NCBI GenBank assembly: GCA_024698715.1
Contig: JAILRA010000062.1
Span: 23,004 to 87,003, forward strand
Length of the DNA: 64,000 nt
Origin: Lachnospiraceae bacterium
GTDB taxonomy: Bacteria; Bacillota; Clostridia; Lachnospirales; Lachnospiraceae
Reading direction: 5' to 3'
The notes below the pieces were generated by a model. It was not told the origin of the DNA. It worked only from the letters and a program-made list of their open reading frames with translations, and ran no database searches. The translations under genes were made by a program, and so were the position numbers. Shown piece by piece: positions 6,861 to 47,418 of the stretch. Numbering within the stretch: the first letter of the stretch is position 1; each line of letters opens with the position of its first letter.

Positions 6861-6884
6861 ATCCAAAAGAGATAATTGACAAAA

Positions 6885-9164
6885 ATGAAGAAAAATTTCG
6901 GCTCAGATAAAAGCATATCTCTTATTTTAAGAATTGCACTTACAGTATTGATAATATGTGTCGGTGCAACTTTTTTGCATGTCTATGATATTAAAAACGT
7001 TTTTGAGAAAAATACTCTCAAATCGTATGAAGGACATGTTGATACAGCTGTCGAGGAAGTCAAATACCAGATAGATATCCTGAAGAATATCATGAATTCC
7101 TTCGAAAAAAATATGGAGGGCGCTTCTCTCAACGAAGAGATAAATGATGTCATTCTCAGGCAGGAAATGTATGCAAAAGGATATACGTTCTATTATCTTG
7201 CACCCAATTCCGTTCTTGTAGGTTCCGAAGAAAACAAATATAACGATGATCTTTATAAGGCATTACAGAAAATATCGGCCTATTATTATACCGAGAATTA
7301 TGTTTGTCTTCCGGCAAAGAATTATTTCACGGATCCCGAATTCTGCGATTCGATCCTTGGCATTAAAAAGCTTCAGGATGAAAACGGCGGCGATTATTAT
7401 CTGATAGTTAAAAGAGACCTTTCGGGAATACTGAATATAGAAACTTTTGATTATCTTAACAGTATGGGATGTTTTGCCATTATAGAAGGCGACGGCGACG
7501 TCATCGCACATTCGGAAACATTCAACAAGTATCTGAGCGGCAATAACAACATTTATAATGCCATATACGCAAAGAGTTCCAAAACAAACAAAGCGCAGAA
7601 TCAGATCAATTTGATAAAAAAGAACATTTACAGCGAGATCAGCTTTTCGACAAAGATAGATGACGAAAACGGTGATAACCTGCTTGTTTACGCCGGCGAG
7701 ATCTCCAATTCGCACGATATGTATTATCTGTATTTCTTTGAAGCCAAAACCCTGAATAAGATGGTTCAGGGTGTTACTATCAGAAGTTTCATTATCTGTC
7801 TCTTTATGATCCTGGTCATGGTTGCCCTGATCATATTTGTGTGGATCACGCTTAACGAATCCAATGACCTTATCATAAAACTTGCTTATATCGACGAGGT
7901 AACGGAAGGATACAACTACAATTATTTCAGAAGACATGTTTCACAGATCCTGCAGAATAACCGTGAAACACCTTATCTCATGTTGAGATTCGATATCATG
8001 AACTTCCGTTATATCAACGAATCTTACGGACATGACAGGGCCGATAAAGTTCTGATGGCTACGGTAAAGCAGTTTGAAAAGGTATTCGATCCTCAGAGGG
8101 AACTCTGCGTCAGAGTCAATTCCGACCAGTTCGTTGCCATAGTCATAAACGACATAGAATTTGAAGAAAAATACATGCGTTATCTTAAAGGCATAAGCGA
8201 CAATGCAAATGAAGCCATGATCAAATATCCCATCAGACTTAAAATGGGTATGTATCAGGTCAGAAAGGAAGATCAGAATGTCGACCTTATGATCGACAGG
8301 GCCAATGCCGCGAGAAAATCGGTCGATGTCACGTCCAATAATCTGACCGCCACATATTCCGACAATATCATTTCAAATATGAGAAAAGTCGATGCGATCG
8401 AGTCGGAAATGGACAAATCGCTTAAGAACGGTGAATTTAAGATATACATACAGCCCAAATGGGATATTGTCAAAGACGAGATCATGGGTGGCGAAGCTCT
8501 GGTAAGATGGATCAAAAATGACGGATCGATGGTTTATCCTTCGGATTTCATTCCCATCTTCGAATCCAACGGCTTTATCGAAACACTTGACTTTTATATG
8601 CTCGAACAGCTTTGCATAAAGATGAAGGAAATGAGGAAAGAGGGTAAGAAATACAGATTCTTCCCCATAAGTGTCAACCAGTCGAGAGTGCTTATCAATA
8701 ACCCCGATTATGTTAAGAATGTTGAAAAGACGCTCAAAAGATACGAAACGGATTTCTCTAAGATACAGCTGGAGATAACGGAAAATCTTTTCTTCGATCA
8801 GCAGGACAAGATGGTCGACGTAGTAGGTCAGCTTAAAAAACTCGGACTTGAACTTGCAATGGATGATTTCGGATCCGGTTATTCATCCCTTAATATACTT
8901 AAAGACGTTCCGTTTGACATACTTAAGATCGATAAGGATTTCTTTGACGAATCCATTATTTCGAAAGCCAGTTCCGTTATCCTCAAAAAGATATTCGAGA
9001 TGGCTGAAGAACTTGATATCGATGTTATCTGTGAAGGTGTTGAAACCAAGGAACAGGTTGAAATGTTAAAAGGCTTCGGGTGTCATGCGGTTCAGGGATA
9101 CTACTACGGAAAACCCATGCCCTGTGAAGAATTCATAGAAAAATACTGTCTGATCAAAGAGTAG
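6885..9164 (+). CDS. Membrane GGDEF-like/EAL protein, probable c-di-GMP phosphodiesterase
   Basis: 759 residues from the ATG at 6885; a TTG at 6876 is possible but sits only 3 bp from the AGAGA ribosome site. Helices at ~13-33 and ~300-322 frame an extracytoplasmic sensory region of Cache type. The GGDEF domain (~335-490) keeps the fold motif FRYINESYGHDRADKVL, but the signature loop reads VNSDQF instead of GGDEF, so cyclase activity is unlikely. The EAL domain (~510-757) is intact: EALVRW (~533), VNQSR, ENLFF, MDDFGSGYSSL (~659), KIDKDF and CEGVET. The expected activity is c-di-GMP hydrolysis under control of the outer sensor. queH follows 7 bp later. Confidence 0.9.
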   Translation: MKKNFGSDKSISLILRIALTVLIICVGATFLHVYDIKNVFEKNTLKSYEGHVDTAVEEVKYQIDILKNIMNSFEKNMEGASLNEEINDVILRQEMYAKGYTFYYLAPNSVLVGSEENKYNDDLYKALQKISAYYYTENYVCLPAKNYFTDPEFCDSILGIKKLQDENGGDYYLIVKRDLSGILNIETFDYLNSMGCFAIIEGDGDVIAHSETFNKYLSGNNNIYNAIYAKSSKTNKAQNQINLIKKNIYSEISFSTKIDDENGDNLLVYAGEISNSHDMYYLYFFEAKTLNKMVQGVTIRSFIICLFMILVMVALIIFVWITLNESNDLIIKLAYIDEVTEGYNYNYFRRHVSQILQNNRETPYLMLRFDIMNFRYINESYGHDRADKVLMATVKQFEKVFDPQRELCVRVNSDQFVAIVINDIEFEEKYMRYLKGISDNANEAMIKYPIRLKMGMYQVRKEDQNVDLMIDRANAARKSVDVTSNNLTATYSDNIISNMRKVDAIESEMDKSLKNGEFKIYIQPKWDIVKDEIMGGEALVRWIKNDGSMVYPSDFIPIFESNGFIETLDFYMLEQLCIKMKEMRKEGKKYRFFPISVNQSRVLINNPDYVKNVEKTLKRYETDFSKIQLEITENLFFDQQDKMVDVVGQLKKLGLELAMDDFGSGYSSLNILKDVPFDILKIDKDFFDESIISKASSVILKKIFEMAEELDIDVICEGVETKEQVEMLKGFGCHAVQGYYYGKPMPCEEFIEKYCLIKE

Positions 9165-17124: not shown

Positions 17125-17146
17125 TTGATTATGTGAGGTGAATTTC

Positions 17147-20100
17147 GTGAAAAGAACCGTACTTTCCATGGCTGAAGAAAACTTTGACTTTTCCGTTCAT
17201 GACGGGAATGTTACTTTTTCGACCGAAAGAATAGAGTTCGTTTTTGACAGTGATACCGAAAGAAACGGTTCTTTTAAACTATATTGCGAAAGTGAAACCC
17301 CCGTACTCGGAGTCTGCCAGGCCAATAATCCCAGAATGAGAGTCAACAATCCTCAGTTCAGGGGATTTGAGGCGGAAATTGATTTTACATTTGATTCGAC
17401 CGGCATGGAGCCCGGCGATGTATCAAAGGGAGAGTTTATTCTTCTTACGGATAAAGGAGAATATTCTCTTCCTTTTATTTGTATCAGGGAAACGGGATAT
17501 ATCAATTCCACTCTCGGACATATCAAAAACCTTTTCCATTTTGCCAATCTTGCGAGAACCAACTGGAACGAGGCGGTCAATGTCTTTTATTCAAACGATT
17601 TCATTTCCCTTATAAACGGAAGTGACGGACAGTACAAAAGTCTTTACAGAGGCTTGAGCGAAAACGTTTTAAACGAACAGAATATTGACGAGTTTCTTGT
17701 AGCCATAAGGAAAAAAGACAGGATCACTTACAAGGTTGATGACAAAGATATCGTGATCGTTAATCCCAAGAATGAGATCACAAAGAGGATAACGGTCAAT
17801 AAGAATACGTGGGGCTATGTCAACATTGACATCAAGTCCGACGGTAATTTTGTTTTCCTTCCCTGCAATCATTTTTCGGGAGATGATTTTGAGGATGACG
17901 AACTCGAGATCGAAGTCAAGATAATACCCGAATTCCTGAAAAAGGGAAGAAATTTCGGAAAGATAACCATTATCACTCCGAGAGAATCCTTCACGGTAAA
18001 TATAATCGTTGACAATGAATGCTGCGATGTTTTGAAACTTGAGAATCATATGTTCAACAAAGCTCTGGATTCTCTTTTAAGACTGTATCTTGATTTTTCT
18101 TTCGACAGGATATCACAGGATACCTGGTGCAAGGAAAGTCTTAAGATCGCTGAAGGAATCAACGGAACAAACGAACACAATATACTTGCAGGCCTTTTTA
18201 AGGCACAGATATATATTATCAGCAAAAAAGACAAGGAAGCGTCGAGAATACTTGACGGAATAGATGAGATAATCGAAAACGAAAGGCTTTCAAACGAGAC
18301 TTACGGATATTATCTGTATATTACAAGCCTTCTTTCAAAAGAAGCGGATATCGTCAGCAAATCCCTTCGTAAGATCAAAAAATTCTATGCCAAAGATATG
18401 GGCAATTCGGTTTTGTCCTGGCTTATTTTATATCTTACCGAAGACTTCTATTCAAAGAGCGACAAGAAACTTGAGTTTCTTGTAGAACAGTTCAGATTAG
18501 GCAATAATTCGCCTCTTCTTTATGTCGAAGGCATAAATATCTTAAATGATAATCCGTCTCTTCTGATGAAACTGGATGATTACGAAGAAGCGGTACTTCG
18601 TTTCGGTCTTAAATACAAAGCCATCAGTGCGAATCTGGGAGAGAGGATCCAGTTCTTTGTTTCCAGACTGAAAGAATTCAAGCCTTTATGGTTTGAGATC
18701 CTCAAATATCAGTATGCATATATGCCCAGCAAAGAACTTCTCAATACGATAGTATCGTACCTTTGCAAGGGAAATAAGATCGGTGAGGAATATTTTGAAT
18801 GGTATTCGCTCGGCGTTCAGGCAGAACTCAGGATCACAAGACTTTATGAGTTTTACATGGACTGTCTGCCTCAGGGATATGACAAAGATCTGCCGCAGAT
18901 GGTAATGATGTATTTTGCTTACCAGAATGACCTTGATTACAGAAAGAAAGCATTTCTTTATCACAATGTTCTGACAAGAAAATCAAAATATCCCGAAATT
19001 GCCGTTTCATACAGAGAAACTCTTGAAGCATTTGCAAGAGAGCAGATCAAAGACAGACATATAAATGAGGATATGCTGTTCATTTACGCCAAAGTCATGA
19101 ATCCCGAATTTGTTACCGAGGATATAGCCAATGAATGCGTAACTTTACAGTTTATTAGAAGAGTAACGGTTCCCTCGGGAATGAGGAGAGTCATTCTTAT
19201 ACATGACAAGGTTATCGGAGAACAGAAATTCACTCCCGAAGGCGGTTATGTATACTGTCCGATCTATTCCAGGGATTTCAGACTGTTTTATGAAGATATA
19301 TACGGCAACAGAATGGTAGTTCCCGAAGAAAACATATCCGGTGCCATCCTGAACAATCCGATGCTGCTCGAAAAGATCGCTCATATGGTTTCGGACAAGA
19401 TTGGGATCATCATGTGCAGAGTGGAGAGTTCTTATTCATACGAAACGATCACGGATGACAATGTTTTCGATTATGAAAGACTCTTACATTCGGATATAAT
19501 CACATATACATACAAGAAGATCATAGTCAAAAATCTTCTGACTTACTATTTTGAAAACGATTATTATTCTGAACTTGAAGAAATATTAAATACAGTTAAA
19601 CCCGAGATCTTCGAAGGAAGCGAAAAAGGAACTTTCCTTCAGATCCTGATAGCCCGCGGAATGTATGACACCGCATTTTCGGTATTGAACAGATTCGGAA
19701 CCGAACATGTGGAAATAAAGAGTATTTTGCGTCTGGTATCCAGACTTCTCGAAAGAACCGATTTCGAGGAAAACGAGATGCTTATTTCATATGCCCAGTA
19801 TGTTTACAGATCGGGCAAGTATGACGGCAATATCCTCGCATATCTGGAACAGCATTTCAGAGGCAACGTAAAAGAACTTAAGAACCTGTACAAGGACTGC
19901 GAGGCATTCGGACTCGATACTTATATTCTCATAGAAAACATTATCATTCAGATACTGTTTACGAATGTATTTTGTTCTGACAAGATCAAATATCTTGATG
20001 CGTTCATAGAGATGCAGGGTACCTACGGTCTTGAAAAAGCATTTCTCGCTCAGTGTGCATACGATTATTTTGTAAAAGACACAATAACGGACGATTATAT

Positions 20101-20701
20101 TTTCGAAAGAATAGAGAAGCACCTCAAAGAAGGTGAAAAATTAAACAGAGTCACCAAACTTGCTCTTTTGAAGAATTATTCGTTTGTTGAAAAAGAGAAC
20201 TGGAACAAAGCTCTTATCGACAGGATCGTCAACGAAGAACTTGAAAAAAAGATATGCTTCCCGTTCTTCATGACTTTTGAATCGATCGTTAGAAATCTTC
20301 AGAGTTATTCTGATTATTCTTTCGTGGAATACAGAGGTAATCCCAACGGACATGTTGTGATCCATTACTGTGTTGAACACGATGACGGTGTGGCTACCGA
20401 ATACAGAAAAGAGGAGATGAATCATCTTTACGGAGGAATATTCGTAAAGGCATTCATTCTTTTCTGCGGAGAGACGGTTCAGTATTATATCACTGAAGAA
20501 AACAGGAATGTTGAACAGCTCACACAAAGCTCTGTACTGACACGACCCGAAGCGGAAACGGAAAGCAAGCCCTGGAGATTTACGGCTCTCAACGACTGTA
20601 TCATCGCAAAGCAGCTTGATGACTATGTTACGGTTGAAAACGATCTGGTTTCCTATATGGAAAAAGATTTTCTGACCAAGGAACTCTTTAAGATTATCTG
20701 A
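17147..20701 (+). CDS. DUF5717 family large protein
   Basis: 1184 residues from GTG 17147, preferred over GTG 17138 because the AGGTGA ribosome site overlaps the latter. There is no signal peptide or membrane helix, so it is probably cytoplasmic. Two beta-rich regions (~5-115 and ~215-320) resemble tandem beta-sandwiches. Then come long helical repeats (~325-1070) interrupted by a beta-rich island (~675-740, RRVILIHDKVIGEQKFTPEGG), and a final beta-rich end. I recognise it as DUF5717, a family known mainly from Lachnospiraceae with no assigned function. It is 16 bp from the DUF5716 gene. A scaffold or solenoid role is inference from the repeats. Confidence 0.8.
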   Translation: MKRTVLSMAEENFDFSVHDGNVTFSTERIEFVFDSDTERNGSFKLYCESETPVLGVCQANNPRMRVNNPQFRGFEAEIDFTFDSTGMEPGDVSKGEFILLTDKGEYSLPFICIRETGYINSTLGHIKNLFHFANLARTNWNEAVNVFYSNDFISLINGSDGQYKSLYRGLSENVLNEQNIDEFLVAIRKKDRITYKVDDKDIVIVNPKNEITKRITVNKNTWGYVNIDIKSDGNFVFLPCNHFSGDDFEDDELEIEVKIIPEFLKKGRNFGKITIITPRESFTVNIIVDNECCDVLKLENHMFNKALDSLLRLYLDFSFDRISQDTWCKESLKIAEGINGTNEHNILAGLFKAQIYIISKKDKEASRILDGIDEIIENERLSNETYGYYLYITSLLSKEADIVSKSLRKIKKFYAKDMGNSVLSWLILYLTEDFYSKSDKKLEFLVEQFRLGNNSPLLYVEGINILNDNPSLLMKLDDYEEAVLRFGLKYKAISANLGERIQFFVSRLKEFKPLWFEILKYQYAYMPSKELLNTIVSYLCKGNKIGEEYFEWYSLGVQAELRITRLYEFYMDCLPQGYDKDLPQMVMMYFAYQNDLDYRKKAFLYHNVLTRKSKYPEIAVSYRETLEAFAREQIKDRHINEDMLFIYAKVMNPEFVTEDIANECVTLQFIRRVTVPSGMRRVILIHDKVIGEQKFTPEGGYVYCPIYSRDFRLFYEDIYGNRMVVPEENISGAILNNPMLLEKIAHMVSDKIGIIMCRVESSYSYETITDDNVFDYERLLHSDIITYTYKKIIVKNLLTYYFENDYYSELEEILNTVKPEIFEGSEKGTFLQILIARGMYDTAFSVLNRFGTEHVEIKSILRLVSRLLERTDFEENEMLISYAQYVYRSGKYDGNILAYLEQHFRGNVKELKNLYKDCEAFGLDTYILIENIIIQILFTNVFCSDKIKYLDAFIEMQGTYGLEKAFLAQCAYDYFVKDTITDDYIFERIEKHLKEGEKLNRVTKLALLKNYSFVEKENWNKALIDRIVNEELEKKICFPFFMTFESIVRNLQSYSDYSFVEYRGNPNGHVVIHYCVEHDDGVATEYRKEEMNHLYGGIFVKAFILFCGETVQYYITEENRNVEQLTQSSVLTRPEAETESKPWRFTALNDCIIAKQLDDYVTVENDLVSYMEKDFLTKELFKII

Positions 20702-20717
20702 TTTACGAGGAAGATAA

Positions 20718-22010
20718 ATGATTTCCGAAATTAAAGAAGTTTTTGACAAAATAAACAGAGACAGATACGTGATCGGACTCGATATCAACGATTCGTTCGC
20801 TCAGGTTTCGGTATGCAAGGTGGATTCCGACAATCCCACAACTATCAGCGTATCGGAAGATACGGACGAATTCAATGTCGAGCTCTATATGCTCAAAAGA
20901 AGGACCGACGGTGTCTGGCTTTTCGGTAAGGAAGCGAAAGAAGCTGAGGAAGACGGAGTTCTTGTAAGCAATCTTTTTGAGAGAGCAAGACTTAAGAAGA
21001 CCGTCAGGATCGACAGGGAAGAATATCTTGCAAAAGATATATTTCTTTTGTTTTTAAAGAAAGTCCTTCTGATGTTCCCGGGAATGATGACGCCCGATAA
21101 GATCATATCGATCACCATCACGTTAAAGGATGCGGATTCCGATACCATCATGATGCTTCAGGAACTGCCTTCGATGCTCAAGGTAAATCCCGAGATCCTT
21201 CATTTCATTACCTACGAAGAGAGCTTTTATTATTACATGCTCTATCAGCCCGGAGAACTGCAGAATCATAATATACTTCTTTATGATTCGTCGGGAGAAA
21301 AGCTTCGTTCTTATTCTTTGATGAGAAATTATTTTAAAACGCCCGGAGTTGCTACCGTTGACGTTAAGGAATACATCAATTTTTCCACCGAAAGTCCCGC
21401 TGAATACGACAGAAGGGAAAAAGATGCGCTGTTTTTGCGAATTTCGACTGAGATATGCAATTCGACCGTTTACTCAGGTGTTTACCTCATCGGAAATCTT
21501 TTCTATTCCGAATGGTCTTCGGAATCTCTTCAGTATTTATGCAAGGGAAGAAAGGTTTTCAAGGGTAATAATCTTTTCTCCAAAGGTGCATGCTATGCTG
21601 CCAAGGAAAAGCATAATCCTTCGGGAAGAGAAGATAAGATCAAATATCTTGGAAATGACAGACTCAAAGTTACCATCGGAGTGGAAACCGATGATGATCC
21701 CAAAGAGCAGATACCTCTTATCGAGGCGGGTTCTCAATGGTTCGAATCCATCGGAAAATGCGAACTCATTCTGAAAGAAACGGATAAGATCAATATTTAT
21801 CTGTCATATGTATACAATAATGTTTTTACAAAAGGCGAGATCACTTTACCCGGTCTTATAACATCGAGTAACAGGATCACCAGAGTTTCGATAGAAGTTA
21901 AGATGACAAACGAGAATACCGTACTTTTCAAAGTATGGGATATGGGATTCGGTGAATTGTTCCCCTCCACGGGAAAAGACTGGGAACAGGAATTAAAATT
22001 GGAAGGATGA
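20718..22010 (+). CDS. DUF5716 family protein, Hsp70/actin-like fold proposed
   Basis: 430 residues, no membrane segment. Residues ~16-35 (YVIGLDINDSFAQVSVCKVD) match a phosphate-1 motif of the actin/Hsp70 superfamily. ILLYDSSGEKLRSYSL (~183-198) fits phosphate-2, and VYLIGNLFYSEW (~255) with NNLFSKGACYAAKE (~283-296) fits the adenosine motif and following helix. Residues ~305-430 resemble the Hsp70 substrate-binding beta domain in motif order: KVTIGVET, IPLIEAGSQW, INIYLSYVYNN, GEITLPGL, RVSIEVKMTNENTVLFKVWD. The nucleotide domain is shorter than in DnaK and no helical lid follows. The family is DUF5716; the Hsp70 link is my inference. Confidence 0.72.
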   Translation: MISEIKEVFDKINRDRYVIGLDINDSFAQVSVCKVDSDNPTTISVSEDTDEFNVELYMLKRRTDGVWLFGKEAKEAEEDGVLVSNLFERARLKKTVRIDREEYLAKDIFLLFLKKVLLMFPGMMTPDKIISITITLKDADSDTIMMLQELPSMLKVNPEILHFITYEESFYYYMLYQPGELQNHNILLYDSSGEKLRSYSLMRNYFKTPGVATVDVKEYINFSTESPAEYDRREKDALFLRISTEICNSTVYSGVYLIGNLFYSEWSSESLQYLCKGRKVFKGNNLFSKGACYAAKEKHNPSGREDKIKYLGNDRLKVTIGVETDDDPKEQIPLIEAGSQWFESIGKCELILKETDKINIYLSYVYNNVFTKGEITLPGLITSSNRITRVSIEVKMTNENTVLFKVWDMGFGELFPSTGKDWEQELKLEG

Positions 22011-22014
22011 TTTT

Positions 22015-22845
22015 ATGGGAAAGGTATATAAACCCATATCGGGAAAAGCCGGCAAACCTTTTTTTCTGGACAGGATCTGCACTCAGGTATATTCTGCCGA
22101 TGAACTGATATACTGTCTCGGAGAAAATCCCGAACTTCTCACCGTTGACATGTTCGGAAAGGAACTTTGCCAGTGGCTTGAGGAAGACTGCAATGCCGGA
22201 GAACTTGCCGAAATGATAGCAAGACTTGTCAAATCGAAGGCTGACATCATAAAGATAGTAACCGCTCTTTTAAACAGCGCTGCTTTTATCTCACAGGATG
22301 AGATCAGAAGGATCGTTAAGATCATTAAGGATGAGGAAGGAAGCAGCGAATTCGACAAGAGAAAAGCAAGAGGCGATTTTTTCCTTACAAAAGAACGTTA
22401 TGAATATGCAATCAGGGAATATGAAACATTGCTGTCGACACTGAATAACGAAGAGTCGGACCGTGTTGCAAATATTTATCACAATATGGGTGTTGCAAAA
22501 GCAAGACTGTTTTTGTTTGAACAGGCTTCCGAGGATTTTCTTCGTGCTTATGACTGTAACGAAGAACCGATCCATTATTATGCATATATCGCAACCCTGC
22601 GTTTTACGCTTACCGACAGGGATTATGTAAGAACCATCGGAAATGACGCGAAAATGAGGGAAGTGACCCTTAAGCTTGAAGAGGATCTGGACAACGCCAA
22701 GAAAAAGTTTTTGGAAAGTCCCGAATATACGGATTTCCTTAACAAGAAAGAAGAGAGCAAAGAAGGCGGAAGATATGCTTTCTGCAGTTTTCTCGACATG
22801 AAACTCAACGAAAAGAAAGAAGAGTATAACAAATACGTTTATTAA
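22015..22845 (+). CDS. TPR-like helical protein of the DUF5716 cluster
   Basis: 276 residues, starting 5 bp after DUF5716 (clear coupling). The N-terminus (GKVYKPISGKAGKPFFLDRICTQ and nearby SADELIYCLGENPELL) is a small mixed domain. The middle (~120-195) has two helix-turn-helix units with TPR spacing: ARGDFFLTKERYEYAIREYE and RVANIYHNMGVAKARLFLFE, then ASEDFLRAYDCN. The end is charged and helical. No enzyme motif is visible. TPR proteins often serve as Hsp70 partners, which fits the neighbour, but this is inference. The exact family is unknown to me. Confidence 0.68.
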   Translation: MGKVYKPISGKAGKPFFLDRICTQVYSADELIYCLGENPELLTVDMFGKELCQWLEEDCNAGELAEMIARLVKSKADIIKIVTALLNSAAFISQDEIRRIVKIIKDEEGSSEFDKRKARGDFFLTKERYEYAIREYETLLSTLNNEESDRVANIYHNMGVAKARLFLFEQASEDFLRAYDCNEEPIHYYAYIATLRFTLTDRDYVRTIGNDAKMREVTLKLEEDLDNAKKKFLESPEYTDFLNKKEESKEGGRYAFCSFLDMKLNEKKEEYNKYVY

Positions 22846-22854
22846 AGGGACAGT

Positions 22855-24000
22855 ATGGGATTTTTAAAAAATCTTTTTAAAAAAAGAGAAAAAATCGAAG
22901 AAAATTCCCCGCTTGACTTTTTCGATTCTCAGATCCACAACGATGAGGAACGAAGAAAGTATGTTTCGACCGCCTTCATGCAGATGAAGGAAATCTCGTC
23001 AGAAATAGACGATCTGCGACTGGAATACAGTGCGATCACACAGTTTTTAAATGACTGTGATGAGATCGACAAGATTCCCGAGGAAGTCAAGATCCCGATA
23101 GAAGATGCGGCCAATGAGATACTGACCGTTAAAACCAATAAAGAAAAGTACTATCTTGAAAAACCTTTAATGGATGAAGATATGTACAACAGAATGGACA
23201 AGATAGAAGATGAGTTTCCCGAGATCTACAATAAGATCAAAGATGCGGAAGAATTCCAGGGAAAGATAAAATCGGATCTGAAAAAAGTCGAAGGAGAAAA
23301 ACAGGCTTATTTTTACAGACGTCATGAACTGAATGCGATGCTTAAAAACATAATAGGGGTTATCGTCATCGCACTGGTTGCGTTTGCTGTCTGCAATATA
23401 ATCCTGATTGTTCTGGCGATCGCGCTTAATATGGATGTAAAGATAGGCTTCCTTCTTTCCGTTACTATCCTCATAGTGGTTTACTCACTGCTTTTCATGA
23501 AAGGAAATGACTTGAGAAAGGAGTCCGATAAACTGGACAGAACGATCATCAAGATCATTCAGCTTCAGAATTCCGTAAAGATCAGACTTGTAAACAATAC
23601 CAATCTTCTGGATTATCTGTATTTAAAATACAATACCGATTCTTCAAAAGAACTTAAGAAGAATTTTGATCTTTTTTCTGAAGAAAAACACAGGCGTGAA
23701 CAGTATGAACGGGCTAATAAAGATCTGCCTGCAGCCAAGAGAAAACTCATGAATCTTTTAAGGAATCTGCCTCTTTACGATCCGGTATCCTGGGTTCATA
23801 CGCCGGAAGCGCTCGTCAATCGTAACGAACTGGTTGAGATCCGTCATGAAATGATAGGAAGAAGACAAAAGCTTCGTGAACAGATCGAAGAAAACACGAA
23901 GAGTGCAGAAAAGATCCGTGATGAAATAAAAGAAATGATCAGACGTTATCCCAAATATTCCGTTGAACTTATGAATATGATGAGGGATTTTGACAAATAA
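22855..24000 (+). CDS. Coiled-coil membrane protein of the DUF5716 cluster
   Basis: 381 residues, 9 bp after the TPR gene. Residues ~1-160 are charged and predicted coiled coil, two adjacent transmembrane helices follow (~163-188 and ~196-218), and the C-terminal part (~220-381) is again coiled coil with many Lys, Glu and Arg. With two helices both coiled-coil arms would lie on the same side, probably the cytoplasm. That would make it a membrane anchor or tether for the other cluster proteins. No known domain was recognised. Confidence 0.65.
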   Translation: MGFLKNLFKKREKIEENSPLDFFDSQIHNDEERRKYVSTAFMQMKEISSEIDDLRLEYSAITQFLNDCDEIDKIPEEVKIPIEDAANEILTVKTNKEKYYLEKPLMDEDMYNRMDKIEDEFPEIYNKIKDAEEFQGKIKSDLKKVEGEKQAYFYRRHELNAMLKNIIGVIVIALVAFAVCNIILIVLAIALNMDVKIGFLLSVTILIVVYSLLFMKGNDLRKESDKLDRTIIKIIQLQNSVKIRLVNNTNLLDYLYLKYNTDSSKELKKNFDLFSEEKHRREQYERANKDLPAAKRKLMNLLRNLPLYDPVSWVHTPEALVNRNELVEIRHEMIGRRQKLREQIEENTKSAEKIRDEIKEMIRRYPKYSVELMNMMRDFDK

Positions 24001-26945: not shown

Positions 26946-28376
26946 ATGGGTATTCAGTTTAAGAAAAAGCTTAAGAGTGCTGTTTGTCTTGCACTGTCAC
27001 TGATGATGATCGCAGGTTTGATCCAAATCACATCATTTCCGGCAAGTGCTGACGGAAATGTCGTCGATATCTTCGATGATGTTCAGGAAGGACAGTGGTA
27101 TGTTAATGCCGTTCAGTTTGTTTACGACAGAGGTATCATGATCGGAACAAGTGCCAACATATTCGGAGTTTCAAATAAACTTCAGCGTGAACAGTTTGCA
27201 CAGGTTCTTTACAGTATGGCAGGAAAGCCCGCAGTTGCCGCAGATGCCGAGAATCCTTTTAAAGATGTGCCGAATAATCCGGGATATCCGAGAGACGCCA
27301 TTCTCTGGGCATTTTCCGAAGGCATAGTAGCCGGAAACGGTGACGGAAATTTCGGTGTCAGTCAGCCCATACAAAGACAGGCGATAGCTGCAATGCTTTA
27401 CAAATATGCGCAGTTTTATGGATATGATCTGACTGTGAACGAAACTGCCATTGACGGATTTGCCGATAAGGATAAAGTATCCGCATGGGCCGTTAATTCC
27501 ATTAAATGGGCCGTCACACAGGGTGTTATTTCCGGAAAATCCGGCAATCTCCTTGATCCTTTGGGAAACGGAACAAGAGCGGAATGCGCTCAGATGATAA
27601 TGAAACTCATAAAGATCAATACCGAATACGGAGAACTGCCGAAGGTCGGCGATATCGTTACTTTTGGCAGATATGAACAGGATAATAATCTTGAAAACGG
27701 AAAAGAACCCATTGAATGGCAGGTTTTGGATATCGATACCGAAAACAGGAGAGTATTTGTATTAAGTAAATACGCATTGGATCAGGTAGATTGGAATTCT
27801 GACTGGAATAATGATGCTACATGGGCCACATGTTCATTAAGAAACTGGATGAACAATGATTTTAAGAATGAAGCATTTTCATTTGCAGAATTGAACAGGA
27901 TTCCTACGGTAACTGTTTCGACAGAAGATAACAAATATTTCCATACCTCCGGCGGCGAGGATTCACAGGATCAGATTTTCAGTATCAGCGTTGAAGAAAT
28001 GGAAAAATATCTTGGACCGTATAATATATATTCCGAAGATTTGATGTGGGGAATGAACCAGAATTTAATCTGTGCAGTTACACCGTATGCACAGTCAAAA
28101 GGAGTATGGAATGGGACTATTACCGAGGAGGAGTACTGGAGTGACAATACTAACTGGTATAATCCCGTAACCAGAACTTTTGACTTGCAAATACATGATA
28201 TTTATACCGAGGATGTAATAGGAGTGACAGGCTCTTTATGGTGGCTTCGTACTCCCGGAATGAATAGCAGAAGAGGCTTGTTTATTCGTTCAAACGGTGA
28301 CGGAGGCTCTAACTGCCGTACCGATACTTATACCCCATATACCGCAGCTCGTCCTGCTATGTGGATACAGTATTAA
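26946..28376 (+). CDS. Secreted SLH-domain protein with C-terminal DUF6273
   Basis: 476 residues. A signal peptide (~1-36, KKKLKSAVCLALSLMMIAGL to ASADG) is followed by three SLH repeats, each with W-x-A and TRAE/QREQ-type ends (~45-95, ~102-160, ~168-220). SLH repeats bind pyruvylated cell-wall polymers. The remainder (~230-476) is a DUF6273-type domain: VTFGRYEQ, PIEWQVLDID, LRNWMNN, SLWWLRTPG, RPAMWI. Its function is unknown; it is common in surface proteins of gut Firmicutes and looks like a lectin-type or recognition domain. A GGGGGG stretch provides the ribosome site. Confidence 0.88.
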   Translation: MGIQFKKKLKSAVCLALSLMMIAGLIQITSFPASADGNVVDIFDDVQEGQWYVNAVQFVYDRGIMIGTSANIFGVSNKLQREQFAQVLYSMAGKPAVAADAENPFKDVPNNPGYPRDAILWAFSEGIVAGNGDGNFGVSQPIQRQAIAAMLYKYAQFYGYDLTVNETAIDGFADKDKVSAWAVNSIKWAVTQGVISGKSGNLLDPLGNGTRAECAQMIMKLIKINTEYGELPKVGDIVTFGRYEQDNNLENGKEPIEWQVLDIDTENRRVFVLSKYALDQVDWNSDWNNDATWATCSLRNWMNNDFKNEAFSFAELNRIPTVTVSTEDNKYFHTSGGEDSQDQIFSISVEEMEKYLGPYNIYSEDLMWGMNQNLICAVTPYAQSKGVWNGTITEEEYWSDNTNWYNPVTRTFDLQIHDIYTEDVIGVTGSLWWLRTPGMNSRRGLFIRSNGDGGSNCRTDTYTPYTAARPAMWIQY

Positions 28377-46990: not shown

Positions 46991-47331
46991 GGGCCAGTAA
47001 TGGTTTCGACAGGGGTTTTGCACCTTTAGAAGCTATCCGTAAGTGACGCGTCAGTTCACAAACCTAAATATAAACGCTGATAATAACAAATTAGCTTTCG
47101 CTGCCTAATCGCAGCGTGTCCGTGGTATCAGTACCTGTCTTGATATCTTAGGGCATCATCCTTGACAGGAAACGACGTTAAGTTTGTTCCGGCTTGACGG
47201 GCGTATAAGGAACTACCGAGTTGCAAAGTCTGTCAAACGTCTTTGCGATGAGGGAATCTTGAAGTTTGACTGTGATAGGAGAAGGAGAGGGAATCTGCTT
47301 TTGGACACGGGTTCGACTCCCGTCTGGTCCA
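46991..47331 (+). ncRNA. ssrA: Transfer-messenger RNA (tmRNA)
   Basis: About 341 nt. The 5' end GGGCCAG pairs with CTGGTCC at the 3' end to form the tRNA-like acceptor, with one G-U. TGGTTTCGACAGG near the start and a T arm (ACGGG-TTCGACT-CCCGT) near the end are typical. The tag frame 47076-47108 reads ADNNKLAFAA then stop TAA, a normal hydrophobic proteolysis tag. CCA is not encoded. Pseudoknot regions lie between. It is paired with smpB upstream. Confidence 0.96.
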
Positions 47332-47418
47332 CTTTTTCAAGGCATTTTTAATGTTACAATTATTAATGCCATTTATTATTTTTATAATAATTATTAAATT
47401 TATCTTTTGGGGGAGAGT

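Follow-up and report, generated by a model that had tools for sequence, protein, structure and literature searches.

A near-universal Lachnospiraceae gene cluster around DUF5716, a lidless Hsp70 relative predicted to lack DnaK-type ATPase function, and a larger four-Hsp70 operon in related families

Hsp70 proteins that have given up their ATPase cycle are exemplified by Ssz1, a subunit of the yeast ribosome-associated complex (RAC). According to the excerpted text of PMC7083937, Ssz1 is a lidless Hsp70 made of a nucleotide-binding domain (NBD) and a substrate-binding beta domain (SBDbeta), does not hydrolyse ATP, binds with low affinity and is a stable subunit. Two bacterial systems also combine Hsp70-like proteins with repeat proteins: GAP1-N2 GTPase neighbourhoods with HSP70, GrpE, an FNIII-DnaJ/tetratricopeptide repeat (TPR) protein and sometimes a second Hsp70 (Kaur et al. 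2020, PMC7159879, in part), and the CoCoNuT systems. Here we describe a cluster of four genes in a 64,000-nucleotide stretch of a Lachnospiraceae bacterium (assembly GCA_024698715.1, contig JAILRA010000062.1, positions 23,004 to 87,003; the whole stretch is called the window below), which encode members of the families DUF5717 and DUF5716, a TPR-like protein and a coiled-coil membrane protein. Pfam counts the first two as members of PF18984, PF18983 and PF18980 and assigns these families no function. As judged from sequence and model, DUF5716 resembles Ssz1 in being a lidless NBD plus SBDbeta whose ATPase residues are gone. It differs in the loss of one NBD lobe and in its company: Ssz1 pairs with a J-domain protein, whereas DUF5716 has solenoid and TPR neighbours and no J-domain part was found in the cluster.

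We propose, with a probability of roughly 0.55, that the cluster encodes the core of a protein-handling complex, with DUF5716 as a clamp that does not hydrolyse ATP and would keep a peptide of a partner or client bound to the scaffold formed by DUF5717. The four genes all lie on the + strand with intergenic gaps of 16, 4 and 9 bp (open reading frame coordinates); a preliminary description of this DNA had adjacency and order right and gave the second gap as 5 bp. The genes and their parts are as follows.

17147..20701, + strand: DUF5717 scaffold protein, 1184 aa (PF18984 and PF18983; AlphaFold2 model)
17189..17497, + strand: DUF5717 aa 15-117, predicted PapD/MSP/ASH-like Ig-type domain
17714..18019, + strand: DUF5717 aa 190-291, predicted second Ig-type beta domain
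18020..20296, + strand: DUF5717 aa 292-1050, predicted TPR-like helical solenoid with a small beta insert
20718..22010, + strand: DUF5716, catalytically degenerate Hsp70 without lid, 430 aa (PF18980; model; structural matches; hhalign)
20760..21617, + strand: DUF5716 aa 15-300, Hsp70-type NBD
21669..22001, + strand: DUF5716 aa 318-428, predicted SBDbeta, at the end of the protein, with no lid
22015..22845, + strand: TPR-like protein, 276 aa (TPR profile match)
22855..24000, + strand: coiled-coil protein with transmembrane (TM) hairpin, 381 aa, accessory (hydropathy, locus survey)
23326..23508, + strand: TM hairpin of the coiled-coil protein, aa 158-218 (hydropathy and sequence)

By its predicted fold and by profile comparison, DUF5716 is a member of the Hsp70 superfamily, with a predicted SBDbeta following the NBD. 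The window protein matched PF18980 (E 1.3e-91), and its model (pLDDT 89.1, pTM 0.82) placed strands at residues 318-427. DnaK and Ssz1 were tied among the best structural matches of this model, and the alignment with DnaK ran over the full length, from 16-429 in the model to 2-504 in DnaK. The preliminary description had called the protein Hsp70-like, and an unrelated fold was not what we obtained. A profile comparison with hhalign agreed: DUF5716 aligned with the Hsp70-A, -C and -D proteins of the operon presented below at 99.1%, E 9.5e-19, over 402 columns. The sequence alignment stops near DnaK residue 494, and no alpha-helical lid follows. In the region of DnaK 370-493, 103-104 of 124 positions were filled in all 120 DUF5716 sequences compared. 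FtsA, PilM and MreB were set aside as nearest fold because the match continues through the SBDbeta and because of the Hsp70-B proteins of the same operon; that the three are missing from the top structural matches is in itself no test.

DUF5716 does not look like a DnaK-type ATPase, although the preliminary description had taken it for an ATPase-like chaperone. The equivalents of K70 and E171, the catalytic Lys and Glu, were kept in 0/120 sequences, as was that of T11, and the third Gly of the second phosphate loop was found in 8/43. A lobe of the NBD of about 72 residues was missing in every one of the 120. It is the replacement of the catalytic Lys and Glu, together with this missing lobe, that argues against a working ATPase.

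The neighbours of DUF5716 stay with it. A profile search for DUF5716 gave 562 confirmed stretches, of which the best 80, nearly all assigned to Lachnospiraceae or a genus of that family, were joined by the window and by five short loci from genome searches to make 86 loci (L001 and L005 are the window's own place). DUF5716 was present in 86 of them, DUF5717 and the TPR gene in 85 each and the coiled coil in 72. DUF5717, DUF5716 and the TPR gene occurred together in 84/86 loci and kept order and strand in 84/84; L001 and L018 each miss one of the three where the available DNA ends. The same order was found in 36/36 further short loci, 23 of which also had the coiled coil, its absence from the others being uninformative in such short stretches. 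The expectation that the genes co-occur, rather than lying apart in most genomes, was borne out, though the fourth gene is not always there. Of the 82 loci with enough sequence behind the TPR gene, 72 had the coiled coil 3' of it; L001, L007, L019 and L022 end too early. It was missing behind the TPR gene in ten loci (L008, L010, L012, L018, L020, L021, L027, L028, L070 and L079). The whole genomes of eight of these, all except L008 and L018, gave no match to the coiled-coil profile, and that of the control, L034, did.

The survey of genomes showed the cluster to be near-universal and nearly always single-copy in the sampled Lachnospiraceae. PF18980 was found in 293/299 sampled genomes across the family (292/298 genera), and in 242/245 of the family genomes with a completeness of 90% or more and a contamination no higher than 5%. 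One match was found in 286 of the 293 positive genomes and two in 7. Among the six genomes without DUF5716, three had DUF5717 (in G396 and G426 at contig ends, in G444 whole) and three, G327, G389 and G522, had neither. In the phylum sample 4/299 genomes and in the class sample 10/291 were positive, every one of them Lachnospiraceae, so that none of the sampled phylum and class genomes carried DUF5716 outside the order. Within the order sample it was present in 71/146 genomes, namely 15/15 of the family and 56/131 of the others. Lachnospiraceae include motile and non-motile as well as spore-forming and non-spore-forming members, and near-universal presence in so varied a family argues for a general cell function.

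Most PF18980-positive order genomes from outside the family had two matches, often neighbours on one contig, and this doubling was a clue to a larger operon. Genomes of the order sample, together with two of Lachnospiraceae, supplied twenty stretches in all, and operon parts were assigned by BLAST clusters and by best match to locus L123. Fifteen loci (L122-L129 and L131-L137, with L123 and L131 near-identical) carried on one strand the series DUF5717, Hsp70-A, GrpE, Hsp70-B, Hsp70-C, Hsp70-D and TPR. DUF5717 was present as one gene or two, the gaps were mostly short, and some loci had extra short genes in between. A coiled coil of the window type followed in five of them (L124, L125, L132, L136 and L137), so that this expanded operon has seven or eight parts; it occurs outside Lachnospiraceae but within the order. 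L139 had the gene layout typical of Lachnospiraceae, and L140 was a stray retrieval. In L130, L138 and L141 (genomes G618 and G630, all of one family, f126) the operon was split, its parts standing several kb from one another or on separate contigs.

In L123, Pfam matches were HSP70 for Hsp70-A (5.1e-76) and Hsp70-C (7.4e-63), HSP70 (4.5e-96) and VWA (1.9e-10) for Hsp70-D, and TPR_2 (5e-26) for the TPR protein; the TPR proteins of the expanded operons have about 390 aa and clear TPRs. Hsp70-B connected the two worlds, matching both DUF5716_C (1.5e-26) and PF00012, the HSP70 family (1.4e-17). The GrpE match (3e-13) covered only aa 517-641, which leaves some 500 extra N-terminal residues. In L124, the GrpE protein matched PF01025 (2.2e-9), B matched PF18980 below the cut-off and the coiled coil had no Pfam match. 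No J-domain was found by Pfam in the ten proteins of two expanded operons. PADLOC placed a candidate model, PDC-M61B, on the Hsp70 part of Hsp70-D of L123 (6495-8573, E 4.4e-7), which is probably general Hsp70 similarity.

In all sequences that span these positions, Hsp70-A, -C and -D retained the catalytic Lys, the Glu and the second-loop GGG. Hsp70-B had the Lys in 0/17 and the Glu in 1/17; one dead subunit would therefore already be present in the large version. Compared with the DnaK-GrpE system, the expanded operon shares the Hsp70 fold, intact motifs in three of its Hsp70s and a GrpE domain at the end of one protein, but has four divergent Hsp70 paralogues, of which A, B and C are lidless and D carries a vWA domain, and the long N-terminal part of its GrpE. 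The Lachnospiraceae cluster differs further in having no long GrpE of its own. A profile for this protein was matched in 60/131 non-family genomes of the order sample and in 0/15 Lachnospiraceae; in a separate family sample 1/80 matched, over 70 C-terminal residues. There was no match in 291 class genomes, a sample without a known positive, for which the order sample served as positive control. Holders with names, among 38 homologues, were Defluviitalea and Epulopiscium-labelled metagenome-assembled genomes. A phylum search with Hsp70-D found some Hsp70 in 244/249 genomes, and the matches listed reached residue ~500 of 692, none extending into the vWA part.

With Hsp70 and GrpE in one neighbourhood, a defence or conflict system, of the GAP1-N2 Hsp70-GrpE-FNIII/TPR type or with RNA targeting in the manner of CoCoNuT, had to be considered. 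GAP1-N2 neighbourhoods share with the present loci an Hsp70, a GrpE and a beta-domain/TPR protein, and CnuD of CoCoNuT is, in the excerpts of PMC11090510, a degenerate Hsp70-like NBD/SBD protein with HEAT-like helical repeats. The cluster differs from both. It has the distribution of a core gene, near-universal and almost always in one copy, and not that of a patchily spread defence locus, and the expanded form has four Hsp70s where GAP1-N2 systems have one or two. No GTPase, tubulin, nuclease or effector family was recognised in the 20 flanking proteins of expanded loci or in three neighbours in the window, a set that covers part of the flanking genes. Nor did the proteins scanned include the GTPase and GAP1 gene or the DnaJ of GAP1-N2 systems, or the McrB GTPase of CoCoNuT. 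PADLOC on the four window proteins returned only Cas11f for the TPR protein, at noise level (E 0.0085). Membership of CoCoNuT, GAP1-N2 or a PADLOC defence system was not found, and we consider a defence role highly improbable. The available portions of PMC7159879 and PMC11090510 describe neither a four-Hsp70 set nor such a core-gene distribution.

The relation between the two forms was approached with a tree of 88 rows. Groups A, C and D each fell on one side of a branch, and B needed two changes. The 22 DUF5716 rows grouped with the B protein of L125 (SH-aLRT 99) and lie within B if the tree is read from the A/C/D/DnaK side. DUF5716 thus appears nested in the B branch, and its descent from subunit B is likely, not certain. 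The window genome, the one genome of Lachnospiraceae individually searched for further Hsp70s, contained one DnaK match to PF00012 (two pieces in one frame) and two further matches in frames of ~337 aa, the size of MreB. Because DUF5716 groups inside the B branch, the simplest history, and a likely one, is a loss of the catalytic subunits A, C and D, of GrpE and of the lobe of B on the way to the Lachnospiraceae form, the dead subunit being the only Hsp70 of the operon to stay. L125 (G596:C25:31000-50900) looks like a stage on this way. It has full Hsp70-A and -C, a GrpE of 279 aa, Hsp70-D and TPR genes in pieces, and an Hsp70-B with the lobe, 74 residues, still in place; the shortened GrpE and the retained lobe are what make it a possible intermediate.

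How might such a device work? DUF5716, DUF5717 and the TPR protein would form one complex, in which the DUF5717 scaffold and the TPR protein position DUF5716 and the SBDbeta holds a client or a segment of a partner by weak binding that ATP does not control, much as in Ssz1. In the expanded operon, the three catalytic Hsp70s, with a dedicated GrpE at their side, would load clients onto the scaffold or unload them. Lachnospiraceae may have abandoned this cycle or handed it to the housekeeping DnaK; DUF5716 would then, much like Ssz1 in RAC, still bind with low affinity but no longer hydrolyse ATP. The coiled-coil hairpin protein, where present, would tether the complex to the membrane. The multi-part assembly that the preliminary description read from the gene layout fits these observations; what it could not show was the much larger version carried by relatives.

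Several points weigh against the proposed clamp. Plain sequence searches find Hsp70 poorly: with the DUF5716 sequence nothing useful was retrieved (best E 0.81), with the profile only DnaK chains came up (E 0.13 and 0.68), and PF00012 missed the window protein even with E values as high as 1 allowed. The Hsp70 assignment therefore rests on structure, the B intermediates and hhalign. The tree program warned of long branches. The D8 equivalent remains in 114/120 sequences and that of D194 in 95/120, so DUF5716 may still bind nucleotide, and judged by sequence some activity is conceivable. The coiled-coil gene, presented earlier as a tether, is dispensable, an accessory, given its absence from ten of 82 loci and from all eight genomes searched. 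Finally, the mean share of the commonest residue was 0.49 in the SBDbeta and 0.49-0.60 in the NBD parts; since conservation in the SBDbeta does not exceed that elsewhere, peptide binding can only be presumed to have been retained. The strongest conservation was in the connect-2/adenosine segment (0.81).

The lack of a conservation peak in the SBDbeta, like the peak in the connect-2/adenosine segment, would also suit a purely structural role. DUF5716 would then be a dead, rigid connector that engages no client, in a complex that helps to organise the cell envelope or cell division close to the membrane. The TM hairpin partner in 72/82 loci and the Ig-type domains of DUF5717, which resemble ASH/MSP domains of cytoskeletal proteins, point the same way; these domains resemble PapD chaperones too. 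On the other hand, the SBDbeta region is present in all 120 sequences, and the three catalytic-looking Hsp70s with GrpE in relatives point to client cycling at the origin. We regard a purely structural role as possible but rather unlikely.

DUF5717 starts with GTG at 17147, preceded just upstream by AGGTG, and another in-frame GTG lies at 17138. PF18984 (E 2.3e-250) and PF18983 (E 2.1e-89) together span its whole length, and its AlphaFold2 model reached pLDDT 87.2 and pTM 0.56; hydropathy gave no stretch above the threshold used and no TM segment. The TPR protein taken alone was weakly TPR (TPR_12, E 0.0024, below the Pfam cut-off), and as a profile it was clearly so, with an engineered TPR chain as best match (E 1.8e-11). 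The coiled-coil protein matched no Pfam family above cut-off and has a single hydrophobic hairpin between long arms; both of its ends are likely cytosolic, as basic residues stand on both flanks of the hairpin. Pfam detected no J-domain in the four proteins.

Another conceivable role is that of an adaptor, DUF5716 and the TPR protein passing clients on to the housekeeping DnaK or HtpG. An htpG gene, named by eye, stood upstream of DUF5717 on the same strand in 19/81 clustered loci. Many of the loci are too short to show htpG, 59 of the 81 reaching 4 kb or more beyond DUF5717 on the upstream side; in L029, L044 and L047 no predicted gene separated it from the cluster (171, 11 and 211 bp). Co-chaperone TPRs are among the many proteins that the TPR profile matches, and the window genome has a single recognisable DnaK. 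However, purB was linked to the cluster more often (52/81), so the position of htpG may reflect nothing more than chromosome order, and no J-domain turned up in the parts scanned. Such an adaptor seems unlikely to us. In the window, an Mrp/NBP35-type ATPase gene (PF10609, 16288-17124) ends 22 bp upstream of DUF5717 and purB (ADSL_C) lies downstream; an mrp gene accompanies the cluster in 14/81 loci, on the other strand in L024 and L026, and purF, purC and purA were recognised by eye among conserved neighbours. Considered as partners, purB, purF, purC, purA, htpG and mrp look like stable chromosome order, with htpG a weak hint.

Elsewhere in the window we noted a tmRNA gene (46991-47332, tag ADNNKLAFAA) and, both judged by eye, a secreted protein with SLH-type repeats near its N-terminus (26946-28376) and a membrane protein resembling a GGDEF-EAL cyclic-di-GMP enzyme (6876-9164).

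Searches of open-licence PubMed Central text turned up no description of this cluster and no earlier Hsp70 link for DUF5716 or DUF5717. DUF5717 was named in no paper there, and DUF5716 in one that is unrelated; the main text of a paper on DnaK duplication (PMC11019930) contains neither 'lachnospir' nor 'clostridi'. The link of both families to Hsp70 and to a wider operon is new here. Tentatively, and with less confidence than in the clamp itself, the whole could be seen as a new chaperone machine, with four different Hsp70s, one inactive and one whose vWA domain possibly catches peptides, a long GrpE, a TPR protein, an Ig-solenoid scaffold and an optional membrane tether. Lachnospiraceae might have made of it an ATP-independent core device, with all engines discarded, that serves a core function of the whole family.

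In conclusion, a near-universal Lachnospiraceae cluster that had no assigned function is now linked to Hsp70 biology. The series from four Hsp70s with GrpE, over a possible intermediate, to one dead Hsp70 lets one ask what an Hsp70 assembly does without the ATP cycle. The cluster also serves as a marker, at the level of the family, for this major gut lineage and points to a candidate for one of its core processes.

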